42,214 nucleotides of DNA from the NCBI GenBank assembly GCA_947570625.1, contig CANOUP010000017.1:1-42214 (forward strand), in the 5' to 3' direction. Below, piece after piece: positions 2,503 through 10,352 of the stretch. Each line of letters begins with the position of its first letter. Within the stretch, counting starts at the first letter, position 1. Made by a program: the position numbers and the translations under genes. Under the pieces are notes generated by a model. That model was given only the letters and a program-made list of their open reading frames with translations, had not been told where the DNA came from and did not search any database. The stretch comes from an uncultured Clostridia bacterium (GTDB lineage: Bacteria > Bacillota > Clostridia > Christensenellales > Borkfalkiaceae).

Positions 2503-3777
2503 TTAGTCCTCATTTAGTGAAAAATTATTTAGTTCTTTTGCCACCATTTCATCTATACAATGTATTTGGGGAATCGATTTATTCAATAAAATTATTGTTC
2601 CTTGCCTAAATATAGGTTGTTCTATTTTATTAGAAATGACTTTGTTCATCTTCAATGGAATTTTATAATAATTTCCTAATAAATCCCGTATTATCAATGA
2701 AACGCTATCTATTTCGGTTTTAGTATGTAATAATTGTTGCTCACAAGAAATCACAAATCCACCATTGCGATCTACATAAATTTTATTTTCAGCCAACATA
2801 TAAGTATCCACGGCTATAATATATTTATCATAATCATATGGTAAAATGCAAGAACGCCCGTATTCTTCATTTAACCTTGAAAAAATCAAATCATTTGGAT
2901 AAACATACTTACATTGCAGTTTTACAAAAGTTTCTTCCGAAATGAAGCCGCTCCCCTGCCTCTTAAATATGCCGTCACCAACATTCCCCGTAGTAAGATA
3001 TCTAATACCTTCGTCTTGTATATAAGGGCTTTCAATCCAATCTCCGTCAATAAACGCATTTTCTTGCGTTTCATCTGCAAGCGTTTTTATTTTACTAACA
3101 CTCCAACTTTCTGGAATTTCACCTATCCATTCCACGCCGCTGTCTTTCATAGACACAGATTTATCAAGCCCTTTTGTAACCGCTTCGGTAATTACCGATT
3201 GCTTATAGGCTTTTAATTCCTCTATCGTCGCTTGTTCGTGAGCTATAAGATTATCAATTCCGCATACTTTCTTTTGTACAAACCTTACAATTTCCTCTTG
3301 TTGTTGCGTATTCGGTAAAGGTAAAACTATACTTTTCATTTCTTGCCAACGAGTAGTCCACAAGTCGGCGACAATGCCGTGTCCCCAACGATAGAATTCT
3401 TCGGCAAAGCCGTAATTTTTCATCAAAAGATTTGTATATTCGGGTAGAATTACATCTGTATTTTCAGTATATAAAACCGTATTGATTAAAGATACCGAGC
3501 CGTCTAAATCGGAAACTCCACAGGATTGTTTTCTATCCGAACGCGAATTTATTACAAAATCATTAACTTTAACCATTTTACGGTTGTCGTTCGCATCGGT
3601 TTTGGCAATGTTTTCCATTTGCGGCACAATTCCGTTTCGCGTTACGGAAAGCGGCGGATAATCCGTATCGTTTACTTTCTCATTACGGCATCTGAAAATA
3701 GAACCTATTTTAATAAACTCCCAATCTTCGGGCGTTTCGCCTATCCATTCAATTCCGCTATCTTTCATTTGTTTCAT
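2503..3777 (-). CDS. hsdS: Type I restriction-modification specificity subunit S
   Basis: DNA-recognition subunit that sets the target sequence for methylation by HsdM and cleavage by HsdR. Two half-repeats are visible: each begins with a version of MKDSGxEWIGExPExW (residues about 4-19 and 210-226) and is followed by a target-recognition domain. The first half ends in the conserved coiled-coil helix (LPxPNTQQQEEIV..., about 157-205). The second half has a TRD-like stretch (about 227-330) but no second copy of that conserved helix; the protein ends in an unrelated stretch. At 424 residues the length is normal. It sits 10 nt after the DUF2971 gene and 3 nt before hsdR. Base composition is AT-richer than in the core genes to the right, as is common for exchanged specificity genes. 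Confidence 0.92.
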   Translation of the reverse strand: MKQMKDSGIEWIGETPEDWEFIKIGSIFRCRNEKVNDTDYPPLSVTRNGIVPQMENIAKTDANDNRKMVKVNDFVINSRSDRKQSCGVSDLDGSVSLINTVLYTENTDVILPEYTNLLMKNYGFAEEFYRWGHGIVADLWTTRWQEMKSIVLPLPNTQQQEEIVRFVQKKVCGIDNLIAHEQATIEELKAYKQSVITEAVTKGLDKSVSMKDSGVEWIGEIPESWSVSKIKTLADETQENAFIDGDWIESPYIQDEGIRYLTTGNVGDGIFKRQGSGFISEETFVKLQCKYVYPNDLIFSRLNEEYGRSCILPYDYDKYIIAVDTYMLAENKIYVDRNGGFVISCEQQLLHTKTEIDSVSLIIRDLLGNYYKIPLKMNKVISNKIEQPIFRQGTIILLNKSIPQIHCIDEMVAKELNNFSLNED

Positions 3778-3787
3778 TTTTCTATCC

Positions 3788-4633
3788 TTAAAATCTCAAT
3801 GGAATATTTGAAGTGTTAATCTTACAATTTAATCCATATTTTTTACACAGCATTTTTACAGCTTCAATTGCGCTCGAATCTTTTATCATTGGAGAAAGCG
3901 TAATTTCTTTCATTGCTTTTTCAACTTCAATGGGGATTTCGAGATAAGGAGCACATAGACCACTTGCGTTACGAAATTTTATAAAATTCTGTTCCCCAAT
4001 AAGCAACATATCATACTCATTTTCAGAAAACTCAATTGTACATCTTACTTCATTTTCCGGTTTGAAAGCAGGGTGTTTAAATTGAAATCTAAAAATACGC
4101 AACTCAGATAATAAGAACATTTTAAGAAAAATCATCTCTTTCGTATTTTTCCATTTTTCGTAATACTTGTCAAAGGTAGTTTTAAGAATTTCTTTTTGTA
4201 TACCTTCATTATATACTACTCCCCAAATACTAACTCTTGGATCAAATATAGTAAAATATTTATAAAGCGCATTTCTTAAATCTGATATCTTAAATGCTAA
4301 ATTATATCCTGCTTTATCATTGCTTTTTGTATAATTTTGCCATAACGGCAAGCTATCGTGATCCCTTGAAAAACTACAAATAAAGCATTTACTCTTTATC
4401 TTATCATGTAATGAATCCAACACAAAAGAAACATATTCTTTCTCGTACGGTTGTTCCATAAGCACTTCTTTTGCTTTTTCAACAATATGTATTCCTTCAC
4501 TTTCATCATTCAAAACAGAGCATTCAGTAAACCACAAACTTTTAGATTTAATAATGCCTAAAAGACCATCAACAGAAGTATAGTGATATACTAAATCATT
4601 TTCATCAATATAAAAGCCTGCTTTTTCGCTCAT
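3788..4633 (-). CDS. DUF2971 family protein inside the type I RM operon
   Basis: 281-residue soluble protein resembling the DUF2971 family. Seen: an N-terminal YHYTSVDGLLGII stretch (about 15-27), SLWFTECSVLND at 32-43, and a middle CFICSFSRDHDSLPLW block. The family is of unknown function. The H-Y-T opening and the LW..S...ND pattern recall ADP-ribosyltransferase-like folds such as DarT, but that is inference. Its ATG overlaps the hsdM stop by four bases (ATGA), so it is translationally coupled to hsdM and separates hsdM from hsdS. It is one of the most AT-rich genes in the window, consistent with transfer. Whether it modulates restriction, is an independent effector, or is a passenger cannot be told from sequence. 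Confidence 0.8.
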   Translation of the reverse strand: MSEKAGFYIDENDLVYHYTSVDGLLGIIKSKSLWFTECSVLNDESEGIHIVEKAKEVLMEQPYEKEYVSFVLDSLHDKIKSKCFICSFSRDHDSLPLWQNYTKSNDKAGYNLAFKISDLRNALYKYFTIFDPRVSIWGVVYNEGIQKEILKTTFDKYYEKWKNTKEMIFLKMFLLSELRIFRFQFKHPAFKPENEVRCTIEFSENEYDMLLIGEQNFIKFRNASGLCAPYLEIPIEVEKAMKEITLSPMIKDSSAIEAVKMLCKKYGLNCKINTSNIPLRF

Positions 4634-6396
4634 TCTCCAAACAGCTCCTTCATTAGTTTTTCTTCTTCCTTGTTCATTTCCACCAAGTGCGCGAAAATGT
4701 CGTCGCTTTTGCGCGGCGGGACGTATTTATAAAAATGGCGGGTAAACGGAATTTCGTAGCCGATTTTTGTTTTCTTTTCGTCTATGTAGGCGTCGGGTGC
4801 ATACGGCAAAACGTTCTTATGCATATATTCGGTAAATTCTGTTCCCCAAGGAATAATTTCGGTATCGCGCTTATTTGTATCGGATTGTGGTTTACCTTTT
4901 TTCAAAATCGGCGCGCCGTTCTCGTCGCATAAAGGGCGTTCTACTGTAACCTTGCTGTACTTAAACGTAAACCTATCAAAGTCTTTGCGTTCCACAGTCT
5001 TGCCATTATTCTCAAAGACGCCTTGCTCTGCCGCAAGATAGGCTTTTATTATCAAATCGATACATTCTTTTGTGAACTCGTTACGCTTATTTCCGAGCGA
5101 TTTACGGCGTTTTTCAAAGCACTTGCTTGCGTCGATTAGTTTTACGATATTAGGGTACTTTTCGGGTTTGCTCTTACTTACTACCCAAATATACGTTGCA
5201 ATGCCCGTATTGTAAAACATATCGTTGGGCAGTTGTATTATCGCTTCCAACCAATCGTTTTCGAGCAAATAGCCGCGGATATTACTTTGTCCGCTTCCAG
5301 CGTCGCCACTAAACAACGGCGAACCGTTTTGTATGATAGCCATTCTTCCCGTATCTTTTAATTTTGCTATACCGTTGAGCATAAAGAGTTGTTGCCCATC
5401 GGAAACGGGCGGAAGTCCCACACCGAATCTTCCCGCGTCGCCCTTTTTGTACTCGGCTTCTACATACGGTTGCTCTTTCTTCCACTCTATACCGAACGGC
5501 GGATTAGATATAATATAGTCGAACTGATACCCCTCGAACGCATCGTGCGAAAGAGTGTTGCCGTGCTTCATATTGTCGGCGTCGCCGCCCTTAATCAGCA
5601 TATCCGCTTTGGCTATGGCGTAAGTTTCTTCGTTCAGCTCCTGCCCGAAACATTTAATGCTTGCATCGGGGTCTATCGCCGTAAGCCGCTCAGTCATACA
5701 GCCGAGCATTTGGCTCGTCCCCATTGCCATATCGTATATGGTGGTGGAAATGCCTTCACGATTCATTTTGTCCGCATCTTCGCCCACCAAAATATCGGTC
5801 ATCAAATAGATAATATCGCGGGCGGTAAAGTGTGCTCCGGCTTGCTCGTCATAACTCTCGGAAAACTTGCGCACAAGCTCCTCGAAGATATAACCCATAT
5901 CCGCGCTTGTAACGATATCGGGATTCAAGTTTGCCTTCGCCGTGCAAAACTCGGTAATAACGGAATACAGAATATCGTTCTCTTCCATTTTCTTTACTTG
6001 CACGTCAAACTCGAACTTTTGGATAATGTCTATCACATTATCCGAAAATCCTTGCAAGTACGCGCGGAAGTTGTCCCCTATATTGTCAGGGTCGGACTTT
6101 AATTTTTCAAGCGTAAATCTGCTTGTATTATAAAACAACCTTTTTGACGCGCGTTTCAAAAATCCGTCTTTGACCTGTATTCCCCTTGCGTTAAGCTCAT
6201 CGTTTTTATCCCATACCGCTTGCCGCGTTTCTTGTAAAGAATCCGAAAAGCGTTTTATCACGCACATAGGAAGAATGACTTTTCCGTACTCGTGCGGCTT
6301 GTACACACCCACGAGCTTATCGGCAATAGCCCAAATAAGGTTTGCCTTTTCTTGCACATTTATCGTCGTTTGTTTTTCTCTCAAATCGGCTGTCAT
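4630..6396 (-). CDS. hsdM: Type I restriction-modification N6-adenine methyltransferase subunit M
   Basis: Methylates adenine at the site chosen by HsdS, using S-adenosylmethionine. Domains: helical HsdM N-terminal domain (about 15-150) and N6-methyltransferase core. Catalytic motif IV NPPF is at 298-301. SAM motif I reads YDMAMGTSQML (221-231), not the commoner DPACGTGGML; from memory a subfamily of clostridial and Bacteroidetes HsdM shares this variant, so I do not treat it as inactivation. The AGAHFTARDI block (186-194) is the usual conserved HsdM region. Length 588 is slightly long but normal. GGGAG precedes the ATG by about 7 nt; the gene follows the HTH gene by 18 nt and overlaps the DUF2971 gene by 4 nt. 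Confidence 0.95.
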   Translation of the reverse strand: MTADLREKQTTINVQEKANLIWAIADKLVGVYKPHEYGKVILPMCVIKRFSDSLQETRQAVWDKNDELNARGIQVKDGFLKRASKRLFYNTSRFTLEKLKSDPDNIGDNFRAYLQGFSDNVIDIIQKFEFDVQVKKMEENDILYSVITEFCTAKANLNPDIVTSADMGYIFEELVRKFSESYDEQAGAHFTARDIIYLMTDILVGEDADKMNREGISTTIYDMAMGTSQMLGCMTERLTAIDPDASIKCFGQELNEETYAIAKADMLIKGGDADNMKHGNTLSHDAFEGYQFDYIISNPPFGIEWKKEQPYVEAEYKKGDAGRFGVGLPPVSDGQQLFMLNGIAKLKDTGRMAIIQNGSPLFSGDAGSGQSNIRGYLLENDWLEAIIQLPNDMFYNTGIATYIWVVSKSKPEKYPNIVKLIDASKCFEKRRKSLGNKRNEFTKECIDLIIKAYLAAEQGVFENNGKTVERKDFDRFTFKYSKVTVERPLCDENGAPILKKGKPQSDTNKRDTEIIPWGTEFTEYMHKNVLPYAPDAYIDEKKTKIGYEIPFTRHFYKYVPPRKSDDIFAHLVEMNKEEEKLMKELFGE

Positions 6397-6414: not shown

Positions 6415-6627
6415 TCAGTCTTTCTTTTCTATAATAACTTCCATAATATCGGAAATATCGCATTGTAACACGTTACAAATTTTAAGCAAAATTTCCGTAT
6501 TGACGTTTTCGTTTCTTCCGAGTTTTGCAAGCGCCGTTGTAGTAATCCCCGTTGCAATGCGCAAATCTTTCTTCTTCATATCTTTATCAATAAGTAACTT
6601 CCATAGCTTTTTATAACTGACTGCCAT
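6415..6627 (-). CDS. Small XRE/Cro-type HTH protein
   Basis: 70-residue helix-turn-helix protein of the Cro/C1 type: KKKDLRIATGITTTALAKLGR forms the DNA-binding helices (about residues 19-39), followed by a short C-terminal segment ending IIEKKD. I chose the ATG at 6627 because GAGAGGT lies about 8 nt upstream; a TTG 18 nt further upstream overlaps that site. It lies between the TIR gene (21 nt) and hsdM (18 nt) on the same strand. By analogy with controller proteins of restriction systems it may regulate this operon, possibly through the palindrome at 7663-7683; that is inference. A similar small HTH gene often precedes mobile or defence genes. Confidence 0.85.
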   Translation of the reverse strand: MAVSYKKLWKLLIDKDMKKKDLRIATGITTTALAKLGRNENVNTEILLKICNVLQCDISDIMEVIIEKKD

Positions 6628-6648
6628 ATAATTTACCTCTCTCAAAAA

Positions 6649-7170
6649 TTAATTGTCGTAATATTTTCCTGCCCGCAGTTTCATAACGGGATTTTTATGC
6701 TTGACTTGAATCCTGCTATTGTCTCTATTTTCTATTGCCAAATCAATAGCTTGTTCGATTCTATCTCCGATTGAAGCGTATTGCTCCAAAACTATGTAGT
6801 CAAAATTTTCTTGTAGCTTTGTAGGAAAAGTATCCAAATCTATATCGTTTTTATTGTCGCATCTATTTTCAAGCATAACAGCCACGATGCCTTTCCTATT
6901 TTCTACACCGCCCTTTAATGCCGTATGTATTTCACAATCAACGTGCGGTCTTGAATAAGTTTCTTTGCCTACGATACAAAGCAAAACATCACAGCCTTTC
7001 ATTTTGGAGCATATATGGTCGGCTATATGCTGATGATTCCATCCGTTAAAAGTTTCATTTTCATCCACACAAAAATACCGATACCCGTATTCATTTAATA
7101 TCTCAATGATTGCATCCTTGTATTTTTTATCTGCCCTATGATAACTAATAAAAATCTTTGGTTTACACAT
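6649..7170 (-). CDS. TIR-like (DUF1863/ThsB-like) protein
   Basis: 173-residue protein with a TIR-like fold of the DUF1863 (MTH538) type: first strand KIFISYHRADKKY (5-17), CDVLLCIVGKETYSRPHVDCEI (60-81) and a following strand IVAVMLEN. E80 in the VDCEI segment is in the place of the catalytic glutamate of NAD-processing TIR domains, and the R-x-H-V-D-C-E-I pattern resembles the Thoeris sensor ThsB. No fused effector domain is present, so the protein would make or sense a signal for a partner; the preceding membrane protein (12 nt upstream) is the natural candidate. GGAGAG precedes the ATG. Family assignment is by pattern recall; the signalling role is inference. Confidence 0.85.
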   Translation of the reverse strand: MCKPKIFISYHRADKKYKDAIIEILNEYGYRYFCVDENETFNGWNHQHIADHICSKMKGCDVLLCIVGKETYSRPHVDCEIHTALKGGVENRKGIVAVMLENRCDNKNDIDLDTFPTKLQENFDYIVLEQYASIGDRIEQAIDLAIENRDNSRIQVKHKNPVMKLRAGKYYDN

Positions 7171-7182
7171 TTTCTTGCTCTC

Positions 7183-7593
7183 CTATAAAAAATAAGTCAA
7201 CAACACTATTCCGGTTGATATTAGTGCCAGCGGAATATAAAACAATATTTCTGTTTTAGATGTCGCACAACTTATCCAAGTATTTTGATACGACTTAAAT
7301 TCAGGCGACTTTGTATTCATATCAAAATCTATTTGTTCTTCCGTTAAAACCCTTACTTTGTTATATAGCGCTCTATATAATCGTTCTTGTAGAAGGTAAT
7401 AAGAATCCAATCCCCAAAATATGAGAATCGGCGCGTAAGCTATCAAACAAAAGAGCTTGTCCGCATCCCGACTTGCCAAAGCAAAGATGCCGGCAACTAA
7501 TGTAACCGCCCAGCCTTTCAAGGAAAATGAATTTTTCGCCATTCGGTTTATAATCCCTTGAATCATCTCCAAATGCGTAACTTTATTATTCAT
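7183..7593 (-). CDS. Small three-helix membrane protein paired with the TIR gene
   Basis: 136-residue protein, unrecognised by name. An amphipathic N-terminal part (HLEMIQGIINRMAKNSF, 7-23) is followed by membrane helices at about 25-42 and 46-66, a charged loop carrying QERLYRALYNKVR, and a third helix at about 115-135. I recall similar unannotated proteins in other bacteria with the same EMIQ..INRMA.NSF.LKGW and FWGLD.YYL.QERL.R blocks. First gene of the defence operon, 12 nt before the TIR gene, with GGGAG and a strong promoter upstream. A pore-forming or membrane-disrupting effector triggered by the TIR product would fit the Thoeris logic, but no sensor domain such as macro or SLOG is present. 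Confidence 0.8.
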   Translation of the reverse strand: MNNKVTHLEMIQGIINRMAKNSFSLKGWAVTLVAGIFALASRDADKLFCLIAYAPILIFWGLDSYYLLQERLYRALYNKVRVLTEEQIDFDMNTKSPEFKSYQNTWISCATSKTEILFYIPLALISTGIVLLTYFL

Positions 7594-7630: not shown

Positions 7631-7659
7631 ATTATAGCACAAATTTTTTAATTTTTCAA
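7631..7659 (-). promoter_or_regulatory. Promoter of the defence operon
   Basis: On the minus strand TTGAAA (7659-7654), a 17-nt spacer and TATAAT (7636-7631) form a near-consensus vegetative promoter about 38 nt upstream of the membrane-protein ATG at 7593. Confidence 0.8.
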
Positions 7660-7690: not shown

Positions 7691-7718
7691 AAAAAGAAAA
7701 TCGGCTTTTACAAGCCGA
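7691..7718 (-). terminator. Rho-independent terminator of rlmD
   Basis: Downstream of rlmD on the minus strand, TCGGCTT and AAGCCGA form a 7-bp stem (7718-7701) followed by TTTTCTTTTT. It separates the trpS-rlmD operon from the defence operon. Confidence 0.8.
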
Positions 7719-7723
7719 CTTCA

Positions 7724-9397
7724 TTATATAATTTCAAAATACTTTAATGTTTCTTTTATAGCTTCCACCATTTTCGGTGTGGGATGCGGACGAGGGTGTT
7801 TTAATTCTTCGACGGCGTTGGGCGCGTCGTACATAGGCAAGCCTAATTCACGTTTGACTTCGGCGATATATGCCGTGTGGACTTTGAAGCCGTAAGTTTG
7901 CTCGATATAGTCTTGTATCTTCTTATACGTTACTTTATCTTTCGATTTGCGTTCTCCGGCGCGCTCTTTGATTTTCTTTAACGAAAACTGTCCCTCGTTC
8001 TCTCCGAATTCCACATCGATGTTGATATGACTGTCGGGAATTTTTTTGGAAAGAACGACGAGCGTCTCCGCCCACTTTGTCTGCGGGAACATATCGAACG
8101 GCGTGACGCTTTCAACAGAGTATACGCCCCCGCCTTCGCCCTTTACAAGCGCGCCGTCCTCTTCTTTGAGCGTTCCGCAGAGCAAGCCCATATCGCGCGC
8201 AAGCGTTGCGGGATTGCACGAAACGAGGATTACTTTGTCCGCGCCCGAACGCGAAACCGCGCGCAGTACGCTCCTCTCCATTCCCTTCCTCGGCGGGTCG
8301 CAGACTATAATGCGCCGTCTGCCCTCCGTTGCTTCGAGCGCCTTGTCTACCTCGTTTTCGGCCGCACCGCAGATATTGAACATTTTCCCCGTCAGTCCGT
8401 TAACGGTTTTAAGCACGTCGGCACAGCGCGAGGCTTCTTCCACGATTTCTATTCCGTACGCAAGCCCGCACTTTTTTGCAAGCATAGCGGTAAGCATTCC
8501 CCCTCCGCTGTACAAATCGATTACAGCCGAGCCCTCCTCCGCTTCCGCAAGCACCGCGGAATAGAGCTTTTCCCTGATTTCGTCGTTTACCTGTACGAAC
8601 GTGTTCGCGCCCGCCCTGTACTTTATACCCATATCCTCGGCTTCGAAAAAGCCTTTGCCCCTGCATATGTGCCATTCATTGCCGAAAATCACGTTCGTAT
8701 CGGTAGGGTTGACGTTTAAAAGCAAAGTAAAATCAGCGAACTTTTTCTCTAATATCACGCCCAGCTTTTCAAGACTTATTCTCTCTTTCGCGACGAGCGC
8801 GAATATGTACTTTTTACCCAGTTCGCGCACGACTATGTGTCGGATAACGCCCTTTTTACAGTATTTCGAAAACTCTTTGACCGCGCTTATTACGTCCCTG
8901 CACGCCTCCGACTGGATAGCGCATTCCGATACGGGCACTATCCTGTGACTGCGCCTTGCATAGAAGCCGACAACCGTGTTTCCCTCATCGTCAACACCCA
9001 CGGGCAGGCTGAGTTTGTTTCTGTACGCATACCTGTTTGAACAGGGAACGGCGGGATTGACCTCGGTATATATACCGCCTATTTTCGAAAGAACGTTTTT
9101 AACCGAGCTCTGTTTGAATTTAAGCTGTTCGTCATAGCTCATATGCTGTAAATCGCATCCTCCGCACCTGCCGAACACCGGACAAACGGGATTGACCCGC
9201 GCATATGACGGGGTTAATACCTCTATAAGCTTGCCGTAAGCGATTGCGCCCTTAACTTTGAGAACCTTGAACCGCACCTTTTCCCCGACAAGACAAAAAG
9301 GCACAAACACCGTTGCGCCCTCTGCTTTTATTATTCCCTCGCCGTCGGTTGCGTAACCTTCGACGACTCCTTCGTATTCTTCGTTTTTATCAATCAT
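7724..9397 (-). CDS. rlmD: 23S rRNA (uracil-C5)-methyltransferase, RlmD/RumA type
   Basis: Methylates C5 of a uracil in 23S rRNA (U1939 in E. coli numbering for RlmD). Domains: N-terminal TRAM-like barrel (about 1-55), iron-sulfur region CPVFGRCGGC with a later cysteine, SAM-binding VIDLYSGGGML, DPPRKGM, and catalytic VSCNPATLARD. The C-terminal 100 residues after the methyltransferase (from about SHINIDVEF) form an extension I recall in clostridial homologues, containing KVHTAYIAEVKRELGLPMYDAP. The ATG at 9397 overlaps the upstream TGA by one base and is preferred to an in-frame TTG at 9415. Last gene of the trpS operon. The paralogue (RlmD or another RumA-like enzyme) is not certain. Confidence 0.9.
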   Translation of the reverse strand: MIDKNEEYEGVVEGYATDGEGIIKAEGATVFVPFCLVGEKVRFKVLKVKGAIAYGKLIEVLTPSYARVNPVCPVFGRCGGCDLQHMSYDEQLKFKQSSVKNVLSKIGGIYTEVNPAVPCSNRYAYRNKLSLPVGVDDEGNTVVGFYARRSHRIVPVSECAIQSEACRDVISAVKEFSKYCKKGVIRHIVVRELGKKYIFALVAKERISLEKLGVILEKKFADFTLLLNVNPTDTNVIFGNEWHICRGKGFFEAEDMGIKYRAGANTFVQVNDEIREKLYSAVLAEAEEGSAVIDLYSGGGMLTAMLAKKCGLAYGIEIVEEASRCADVLKTVNGLTGKMFNICGAAENEVDKALEATEGRRRIIVCDPPRKGMERSVLRAVSRSGADKVILVSCNPATLARDMGLLCGTLKEEDGALVKGEGGGVYSVESVTPFDMFPQTKWAETLVVLSKKIPDSHINIDVEFGENEGQFSLKKIKERAGERKSKDKVTYKKIQDYIEQTYGFKVHTAYIAEVKRELGLPMYDAPNAVEELKHPRPHPTPKMVEAIKETLKYFEII

Positions 9398-9792
9398 CAC
9401 GAACACCCGTCGCAAACAGCTTCACAGCAACCCGTACCGCACGCCTCGCATCCGCATAAACAGCACGCTTCCGCAAATCCGTCCGTTGAACCCATTTGCT
9501 TTTTCTTAACTTTGGTCTGCTTATATTCCGCGGTCTTTCTGAATTCGTTCAGGTCGTCGAGCGCCTGCGCGTATTCGGCGTTGGACGGGTCGAGTTTAAC
9601 CGCCTGTTTAAAACACCTGCGCGCTTCGGAGTACCAGCATTTGCACATAAATATACGGCCCAGCAGATACCGCGCTTCCGCGTTTTGGGTATCCGTTCTG
9701 TCGATTATTTCCCGCGCCTTGTCAAGCTTGCCGTTTTCGATATACTCCCGCGCGCGTGCAAGGTCATCCGCCGTAAAATCATTTTCGGACAT
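9397..9792 (-). CDS. TPR protein with a cysteine-rich C-terminal tail
   Basis: 131 residues. Residues about 5-85 form two tetratricopeptide-like helical pairs (ARAREYIENGKLDKAREII and AEARYLLGRIFMCKCWYSEA, ending AVKLDPSNAEYAQALDDL). A lysine-rich linker leads to a tail with nine cysteines in the last 23 residues (CCLCGCEAC...CC...C..C). AAGGAA precedes the ATG; the gene starts 2 nt after the membrane-protein gene and abuts rlmD. It looks like a paralogue of the J-domain/TPR protein at 10359-10976. The tail could bind metal, be disulfide-linked or anchor to membrane; function is unknown. Confidence 0.75.
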   Translation of the reverse strand: MSENDFTADDLARAREYIENGKLDKAREIIDRTDTQNAEARYLLGRIFMCKCWYSEARRCFKQAVKLDPSNAEYAQALDDLNEFRKTAEYKQTKVKKKQMGSTDGFAEACCLCGCEACGTGCCEAVCDGCS

Positions 9793-9794
9793 AA

Positions 9795-10352
9795 CTATTT
9801 CCTTATACGGCAGACAAGCGCGTCAATCGCCGTCTGCGTCTTGAATATGAGATAGTCGTAGGGAAAGAAAATCACCGTTCCGCCCACAAAGATAAACCAG
9901 TAAATATAAGTATTGATAAAAGTGAAGAAAGCGTTATCCGCGTTCGCCCCGCCAAGCACGCTGTCGAATATGAGTATATACGCGACCCACAGCGTGAAGT
10001 CGAACCATACGGTTTTAACGGCAAGCGCAATCCACCTGTTAATTTTGAATTTGACCTGCAAACAGTTTATGAGCGGGTGAAGCCCGAAAAACATTATGAA
10101 GGGCACTAAATCCCAGAACCGCGCCGCGGCGCCCATTACTATCGCCAGCACGACCGTACCCGCGTAAGCAAGGAAACCGCCCCTTATAAACTGCTTTGAC
10201 AGCGGTACCATAAGCGCGGTTATTCCGAACAGATAGCCCGAAGCAAGAAGCACGTTGCTCCAAAACCCGAGCATTAAAAAGATTACGGCAACCGCGCAGG
10301 ATATTGCGGACAGCGCCAGTTCGAACGACCGCGAGTATTTACGTTTACCCAT
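9795..10352 (-). CDS. Multi-helix membrane protein of unknown function
   Basis: 185 residues with about five to six hydrophobic segments: near 12-33, 37-55, 60-78, 83-98, 108-128 and 145-165. Charged termini (MGKRKYSRSF at the start, CRIRK at the end). I do not recognise the family; the arrangement resembles small integral-membrane proteins with an ECF S-component-like helix count, but no substrate motif is visible. It lies between two cysteine-tailed TPR proteins in a gap-free operon (6 nt after one, 2 nt before the other), so it may be their membrane partner. Confidence 0.7.
   Translation of the reverse strand: MGKRKYSRSFELALSAISCAVAVIFLMLGFWSNVLLASGYLFGITALMVPLSKQFIRGGFLAYAGTVVLAIVMGAAARFWDLVPFIMFFGLHPLINCLQVKFKINRWIALAVKTVWFDFTLWVAYILIFDSVLGGANADNAFFTFINTYIYWFIFVGGTVIFFPYDYLIFKTQTAIDALVCRIRK

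Follow-up and report, generated by a model that had tools for sequence, protein, structure and literature searches.

A TIR and three-helix membrane protein gene pair ahead of a type I restriction-modification operon looks like a copy of a widespread antiviral unit

The window, the whole 42,214-nucleotide stretch of DNA analysed here, comes from an uncultured Clostridia bacterium and ends, on its left side, within a row of minus-strand genes. At the head of this row lies a gene for a 136-aa three-helix membrane protein (7183-7593), a predicted effector belonging to the PADLOC family PDC-M50A, in which we take PDC to stand for phage defence candidate. It is followed after 12 nt by a gene for a 173-aa TIR protein (6649-7170), a divergent ThsB-like protein with a candidate catalytic residue, Glu80. 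By reading of the sequence, ribosome-binding-site-like stretches (AGGGAG and AGGAG) precede the start codons of the pair, one before each ATG. A first-pass annotation had reported this pair at the same position and spacing and had placed it at the head of a type I restriction-modification (RM) operon, and HsdM, HsdS and a contig-cut HsdR are indeed encoded downstream on the same strand. Absent from that description was a gene between the TIR gene and hsdM, which encodes a Cro/C1-type regulator (HTH_26, 4.4e-18; minus strand, 6415-6627 from a probable ATG at 6627, the mechanical ORF start being a TTG at 6645) and which also matches NCBIfam VanU, below the VanU cut-off. The minus strand then encodes the type I methyltransferase HsdM (4630-6396; N6_Mtase 1.2e-54, HsdM_N 6.6e-25, MTase_I 4e-222), a DUF2971 protein between hsdM and hsdS (3788-4633; DUF2971 1.4e-8, and PADLOC candidate PDC-S31 1.8e-7), the specificity subunit HsdS (2503-3777; Specificity_I 4.8e-79) and HsdR (1-2499; an open frame with 833 aa present; REase_I 8.8e-38, HSDR_N 6.8e-12, T1R_D3-like 7.1e-11). 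From the regulator to hsdR, the genes are separated by at most 21 nt or overlap by 4 nt. The type I set of hsdM, hsdS and hsdR is thus present in full, apart from the part of hsdR that lies beyond the contig end.

Upstream of the pair lies a uracil-methyltransferase-like gene (7724-9415; tRNA_U5-meth_tr, 8.1e-11), and a terminator-like hairpin at its 3' side (7697-7722, minus strand) separates it from the pair. Between the hairpin and the membrane protein gene is a promoter-like sequence, TTGAAA-17-TATAAT with an extended TG before the second hexamer (7631-7659, minus strand), a consensus match only. The pair had been described as lying under one strong promoter; the site exists, but the 42-kb window contains nine sites that match at 11 or more of the 12 positions, so that it is a good site and not a rare one. 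The single minus-strand terminator-like site between the membrane protein gene and hsdM lies inside the membrane protein gene itself, which makes co-transcription with the RM genes plausible; judging from this arrangement, the pair and the RM operon are probably transcribed together.

An AlphaFold2 model of the 136-aa protein, built with 54 sequences (mean pLDDT 91.6), bears out the three-helix architecture, with long helices at residues 3-43, 46-81 and 113-135. The match to PDC-M50A (1.1e-49) joins residues 1-131 of 136 to profile positions 1-130 of 134, and the protein matched no other PADLOC profile. The earlier observation that it has no visible sensor domain holds as well: Pfam gave no domain above cut-off, with a sub-threshold hit to DUF2270 (E 0.018) and no macro, SLOG or SIR2 domain, and a PDB search recovered no relative of the family by sequence at E<=1. 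In an alignment of 102 members, conservation is 1.00 (rounded) at W28, D63 and E70 and 0.95-0.97 at R17, K26, R74 and Y77. Averaged by region, with borders that we set ourselves, entropy amounts to 1.37-1.44 bits in residues 1-26, helix 1 and helix 2, and to 2.79 in the outer loop, 2.23 in the stretch 68-115 and 2.59 in helix 3. We infer from the conservation that these residues form a functional site at the cytoplasmic face of the membrane, for signal or for assembly; from the charge pattern, the N-terminus and the stretch 68-115 are predicted to be cytoplasmic.

Several small membrane protein families were considered as relatives, and no relation to SLATT, 8xMP, DUF2270 or DUF3278 was established by sequence, the hmmscan matches to the last three being weak and scattered. 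Pfam 8xMP (PF24838) weakly matched six of 54 members in hmmscan (best 0.0074); the profile comparison with hhalign was not significant (probability 0.3%, E 0.24), in this case against an 8xMP sample of only four sequences. For DUF3278, hhalign was likewise not significant against a three-sequence sample that lay below the DUF3278 cut-off and resembled unrelated membrane proteins. DUF2270 was found in none of 149 genomes, and its only hits in the membrane family were scattered weak hmmscan matches. The 8xMP proteins are nevertheless similar in being small membrane proteins, and one of them (L093, 1417-2312; L and G numbers are our handles for loci and genomes) is encoded 14 nt ahead of a gene scoring above the ThsB_TIR cut-off, a pairing of TIR and membrane protein in another family.

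The 173-aa protein scores above the curated Pfam cut-offs of both TIR_2 (2.5e-13) and ThsB_TIR (1.7e-11; 44.8 bits against a cut-off of 21.2), in keeping with its designation as a ThsB-like TIR. Among PADLOC profiles, ThsB1 (4.8e-9) fits it slightly better than PDC-M50B (1.2e-8). The residue proposed as catalytic, E80, is present; it is invariant in alignment A6, which comprises 39 ThsB-like TIRs chosen from the loci described below, and at least 90% conserved among a wider set of 87 neighbour TIR ORFs. The AlphaFold2 model of the protein is of moderate confidence (mean pLDDT 74.9, with residues 102-109 and 116-128 under 50) and places E80 in a helix (77-85) that follows a strand (62-67). In TIR domains the catalytic glutamate usually sits in the helix that follows the third strand. 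As judged by alignment and secondary structure only, the predicted fold does not appear to lack an NAD site, a failing that the first-pass annotation would have counted against its reading, and E80 is the candidate catalytic glutamate of this predicted site. A PDB search with the window TIR alone returned nothing at E<=0.01; the A6 profile of 39 TIRs matches 9b7d, named ThsB1 (3.3e-52), and 6lhy, named as a DUF1863 protein (3.4e-52), which we take to be ThsB. The C-terminal tail of the window TIR (6649-6711; ..NP.M.L....Y.DN) is common, among the aligned TIRs, only to those of L030 (1114-1635) and L013 (1914-2432), which likewise adjoin the membrane gene. The available text of PMC11204291 indicates that the active-site neighbour of the glutamate (Phe or Tyr) bears on the identity of the signal.

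The adjacency of the two genes is conserved across genomes, plasmids and viruses. A scan of genome contigs from 84,980 species recovered at least 528 relatives of the membrane protein, the best of which were kept as 79 distinct loci. By iterated TIR profiles, a same-strand TIR ORF lies no more than 300 bp away in 62 of these 79 best loci. Four of the remaining 17 have a TIR-like partner according to Pfam (ThsB_TIR, barely over its cut-off, in L061; TIR_2 in L085; DUF4062 in L076 and L083), two end within 150 bp downstream of the membrane gene (L029 and L041), and 11 have no adjacent TIR or TIR-like gene (L020, L022, L037, L038, L039, L040, L043, L045, L048, L051 and L069). In L022 a TIR is encoded two genes upstream of the membrane gene; in L020 a 638-aa protein that is TIR-like by eye gave no Pfam or PADLOC match. 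A scan of a viral collection with the single membrane protein found no relative, and a scan with alignment A3 found 17 loci, each with an adjacent TIR. Matches were also present in 138 plasmid and three phage records, and in nine of the ten records examined (nine plasmid, one phage) a TIR or ThsB-like neighbour is annotated, once at a distance of 332 bp. A tblastn search of the phage collection with three family members returned three Vibrio records only. Small Vibrio phages (14.4 kb, annotated as Vinavirales) carry a TIR and membrane protein pair beside an integrase-like gene (L011, 1347-2635), and a pair from an E. coli plasmid (L009, 2992-4269) recurs with little change, and on plasmids in every case, in 10 of 5426 complete E. 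coli genomes. An adjacent TIR is present at 73 loci of the first sets, where the median nearest gap is 8 nt and 18 pairs overlap, the number of overlaps being inflated by mechanical ORF starts.

The genome, viral, plasmid and phage sets favour members close to the query, and a sample from the phylum is less biased in this respect. A profile search of 398 genomes of the same phylum found the membrane gene at 13 places in 12 genomes, 11 of them strong. A TIR is present at six strong places (the window, L105, L111 with a 76-aa piece only, L112, L113 and L116) and absent within about 1.5 kb at the other five (L106-L110). Closer to the window, the membrane gene is found in none of the 36 other genomes of the genus and in two of 24 of the order, both with TIR ORFs. 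Viewed from the other side, ThsB_TIR occurs in the phylum at 38 places in 27 of 299 genomes, and the membrane gene accompanies it in three of 30 loci examined, one of which is the window; a fourth ThsB_TIR place (G160:C1:82549) adjoins a membrane gene by its coordinates. The tie is therefore lopsided, 62 of 79 genome loci against three of 30: the membrane protein is mostly tied to TIR, and TIR has many other partners. The first-pass annotation had named rare adjacency of homologues to TIR genes as the observation that would overturn it, and adjacency is not rare in the genome (62/79), viral (17/17) or phylum (6/11) sets. The association of the pair and its family membership are well supported. 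Exclusive coupling is ruled out by the five phylum places and 11 genome loci that have no adjacent TIR or TIR-like gene.

The TIR partners of the membrane family are diverse. TIR profiles picked 87 neighbour ORFs, among which Pfam ThsB_TIR matches 67 and TIR_2 matches 30 at E<=0.001, and PADLOC ThsB profiles reach 4.9e-180. Short ThsB-like, long N-extended and fused TIRs alternate beside the family, as do DUF4062 proteins; DUF4062 is a TIR-like domain reported to hydrolyse NAD in the available text of PMC13174449. In L061 (3367-6402) the membrane gene is preceded by a gene for an 874-aa protein with matches to a TIR domain and a beta-propeller, a possible sensor fusion. With labels that are coarse (set by profile and length) and a tree on which many forks are weak, as it retains 143 columns only, the partner label of the 102 membrane proteins changes at least 35 times; the mean for shuffled labels is 44 and the lowest possible count 4. 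It follows that TIR partners swap often, though not at random. Well-supported branches alone force at least six changes for ThsB-like, seven for long and four for fused TIRs. At 13 of 79 loci there is a TIR on each side of the membrane gene, and two or more TIR-profile ORFs, on whichever strand, lie within 3 kb at 26 of 79, a count in which split ORFs appear twice. The label changes and the two-sided loci indicate that one membrane family is served by exchangeable TIRs, like ThsA with several ThsB proteins. No single ORF matched both the membrane and the TIR profiles among the ORFs examined.

The members that have no TIR neighbour show other associations. In the wider regions of the five TIR-less strong phylum places (L147-L151), the membrane gene of L147 (9287-9709) lies directly between the HmaC (PADLOC, 6.6e-73) and HmaB (7.6e-120) genes, with HmaA (1.1e-164) further along. 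L148 (membrane gene 9577-10008) has HmaC (1.8e-75), HmaB (3.5e-117) and HmaA (7.3e-167), with a HEC-01A-like ATPase gene and a small gene also inserted, and in L150 (8147-8569) HmaC (1.2e-75) adjoins on one side, the other side being cut off by the contig end. Near the L149 member is a gene for a type III restriction-like protein (ResIII, 7.3e-10); the wider region of L151 contained no Hma or ResIII-type neighbour. Two TIR-less members from the genome set lie ahead of MTase_I and Specificity_I genes (L037) and beside a gene for a protein with an SspA/DndA-like domain (L048). The five TIR-less phylum rows form one clade (support 100/93), in which the W28/D63/E70 motif is also present, and TIR-less rows overall are dispersed over the tree (20 rows, 15 changes). 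Because five of 11 strong phylum places are TIR-less, three of them with HmaC beside or near, a neighbouring encoded TIR is not always needed.

The pair had also been described as combined with restriction-modification. An RM operon is present here, but the combination is a local arrangement: in a phmmer search of 91 other loci, whose flanks ranged from under 1 kb to 6 kb, window HsdM found a single relative (L047), and HsdS, HsdR and the DUF2971 protein found no match. This count is a lower bound, since the search missed the divergent MTase_I and Specificity_I genes of L037 and many flanks are short. RM as a general component of the unit was thus rejected. Relatives of the operon itself are instructive in their gene content. 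Window HsdM is 78% identical to that of G044, 62% to G041, 46% to G042 and 43% to G001, all in operons with hsdS and hsdR. In the position that the TIR pair occupies in the window, upstream of hsdM, G044 carries DUF4062 (2.9e-28) and bSEFIR (1.8e-74) genes, and it has a 354-aa gene between hsdS and hsdR. In G041 a KAP NTPase gene, PADLOC PDC-S20 (2e-41), lies between hsdM and hsdS and a 108-aa gene precedes hsdR; in G001 the corresponding two positions hold a 452-aa gene, NTPase-like by eye, and a 322-aa gene, and the operon of G042 has no extra genes. Across these relatives, upstream and inter-subunit genes vary (L180 with DUF4062 and bSEFIR, L181 with PDC-S20, and L184) or are lacking (L183), as if the type I RM operon were a docking scaffold for defence genes. 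GC content is 0.445 in hsdM and 0.441 in hsdR, 0.354 in hsdS, 0.36 in the membrane gene, 0.35 in the TIR gene, 0.34 in the HTH gene and 0.30 in the DUF2971 gene (0.296, the lowest of the operon), and the pair looks like cargo added to the RM scaffold. A regulator 85% identical to the HTH protein of the window heads another gene row (L182, 2185-9706) with a TIR-profile 833-aa protein and an HsdM match. A uracil-methyltransferase-like gene precedes the RM operon in G041 (L181, 11962-13347) as it does in the window (7724-9415), and the 3' end of this gene may be an insertion site; no attachment repeat of it was found elsewhere in the window, the other end of the island lying beyond the contig.

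By analogy, we consider it reasonably probable that the pair is a two-gene TIR and membrane-protein anti-phage unit, PDC-M50, that works like Thoeris. The TIR protein would be inactive until it met a phage product and, once triggered, would produce a signal of the ADP-ribose type at its predicted NAD site (Glu80). The 136-aa protein would be an inner-membrane protein whose N-terminal helix and helix-2 extension lie in the cytoplasm, and its conserved hairpin at the membrane face (R17, K26, W28, D63, E70 and R74) would read the signal. It would then break the membrane barrier, through a pore or by depolarisation, and the infected cell would stop before phage release. The island would in this way combine a DNA-cutting layer, the type I RM system, with an abortive layer, the pair. 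Consistent with a Thoeris-like unit are the matches to PDC-M50A and PDC-M50B, the adjacency of TIR at genome and viral loci with its short median gap, the ThsB-like character of the neighbour TIRs (ThsB_TIR in 67 of 87, and the A6 profile match to 9b7d), the exchange of TIRs around one membrane family (at least 35 changes; two-sided at 13/79) and the concentration of conservation in the N-terminal stretch, helix 1 and helix 2. TIR-coupled membrane effectors are, moreover, known from the TM-macro ThsA (PMC11204291) and a P2-like phage locus (PMC9122126), as far as the available text of these sources goes. Against this reading stand the loci that have no TIR (5/11 and 11/79), the failure of the window TIR alone to match the PDB at E<=0.01 together with its moderate model (pLDDT 74.9), and the fact that most ThsB_TIR places of the phylum have no membrane neighbour, three of 30 loci examined having one. 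The membrane protein also has no recognisable nucleotide-binding domain, so that signal reading would be a guess.

The lack of a signal-binding domain and the tight coupling of the genes, with a median gap of 8 nt, would also suit a membrane protein that serves as a tether or brake, from which phage disturbance of the membrane frees or assembles a TIR that itself depletes NAD. The fused TIR-propeller protein and other large TIR partners could be effectors themselves, and the reportedly NAD-hydrolysing DUF4062 (PMC13174449, in its available text) pairs with the family in L076 and L083. However, W28, D63 and E70 are kept in the TIR-less clade too and are therefore not merely a TIR docking surface, and very different TIR classes swap beside the membrane protein; such a tether appears unlikely. 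The TIR-less members themselves, beside Hma genes in L147, L148 and L150, near ResIII in L149, ahead of MTase_I and Specificity_I in L037 and beside the SspA/DndA-like gene in L048, would instead fit a generic membrane effector of several defence operons (TIR, Hma and DNA modification) for which TIR is one trigger, and the gathering of the five phylum rows in one clade (100/93) while other TIR-less rows are scattered points the same way. TIR-less members are nevertheless a minority in every set (5/11, 11/79 and 0/17) and some of the scattered cases may be decayed pairs, which leaves a generic effector of this kind distinctly unlikely. That the genes, devoid of anti-phage signalling, form a toxin-antitoxin-like pair or simply regulate the RM operon is suggested by their small two-gene size, their place ahead of the RM genes and the HTH gene between pair and hsdM. 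We regard this as highly improbable, given that 90 of the 91 other loci have no HsdM relative within the flanks examined, that the TIR glutamate is conserved, that 26 of 79 loci have at least two TIR-profile ORFs within 3 kb and that plasmids and viruses carry the pair.

A broader form of the Thoeris-like reading is tentative and, in our estimate, rather unlikely: PDC-M50A would be a minimal shared membrane effector whose sensor lies in its own cytoplasmic helix hairpin and which reads the products of many TIR and TIR-like proteins and, in the TIR-less clade, a signal from Hma or DNA-modification operons. If this were true, PDC-M50A would be a plug-in death module across bacteria, archaea and viruses. 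If the Thoeris-like reading is right, the protein would rank among the simplest of immune effectors, having three helices in a short chain, lacking a dedicated sensor domain and pairing with exchangeable TIR sensors in bacteria, archaea and viruses. A constant membrane partner with swapped TIRs makes the identity of the signal common to these TIRs directly testable, and the Hma-side TIR-less members predict that there is either another trigger or a new source of the signal. With relatives that carry other defence-type cargo (DUF4062 and bSEFIR, PDC-S20), the RM operon adds another example of defence operons that have defence genes embedded in them.

The pair was proposed to be an uncharacterised membrane effector with its TIR, and this is accurate in part. 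We recognised no study of the pair among the matches listed in the literature searched, which covered few subscription papers and preprints, and the term PDC-M50 was not found there; but the pair is already listed, with no functional description, as candidate PDC-M50 (A, membrane; B, TIR) in PADLOC-DB 2.0.0 (2023). The window resembles PDC-M50 in that its membrane protein matches PDC-M50A (1.1e-49) and its TIR, adjacent at 12 nt, matches PDC-M50B (1.2e-8), and differs in the weakness of the latter match, over which the ThsB1 profile scores slightly better. The pair thus looks like a copy of a widespread antiviral unit that is catalogued as a candidate and apparently uncharacterised, with a mechanism that can be proposed by analogy. 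A type VI Thoeris that signals by 2'cADPR is mentioned in the available text of PMC13232231, citing a 2025 preprint (10.64898/2025.12.03.692087), and that preprint may already define the effector of the window.

Other pairings of TIR with membrane proteins have been described. Phage TIR genes beside two-transmembrane (2TM) SLATT proteins, sometimes with an HTH gene, were predicted in 2022 to encode membrane effectors of ADP-ribose signals (PMC9503650, in its available text). The window is similar in that a TIR adjoins a small membrane protein and an HTH gene may be present, and differs in that its protein has three long helices in the AlphaFold2 model and matches no SLATT model at E<=1; nor was SLATT among the 25 listed of the 34 Pfam families matched by 54 members. 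A locus of the P2-like phage AC1, which protects E. coli from phage according to the available text of PMC9122126, similarly joins a TIR with transmembrane proteins, but in three genes.

A further comparison is with Thoeris, in which ThsB acts with a SIR2-SLOG ThsA (type I) or a TM-macro ThsA (type II). As in both types, a ThsB-like TIR adjoins an effector candidate in the window. As in Thoeris, too, there may be one or several TIRs per partner, several ThsB proteins per ThsA being a known pattern in the available text of PMC11204291. The type II system is alike in that its effector is a membrane protein, the TM-macro ThsA, which is characterised in the accessible parts of PMC11204291, PMC12847820 and PMC12948488. 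Unlike either ThsA, the partner in the window has no SIR2, SLOG, macro or recognisable signal-binding domain. The pair shares with Thoeris the ThsB-type TIR, and in place of a ThsA effector with SIR2-SLOG or TM-macro domains it has a short three-helix membrane protein.
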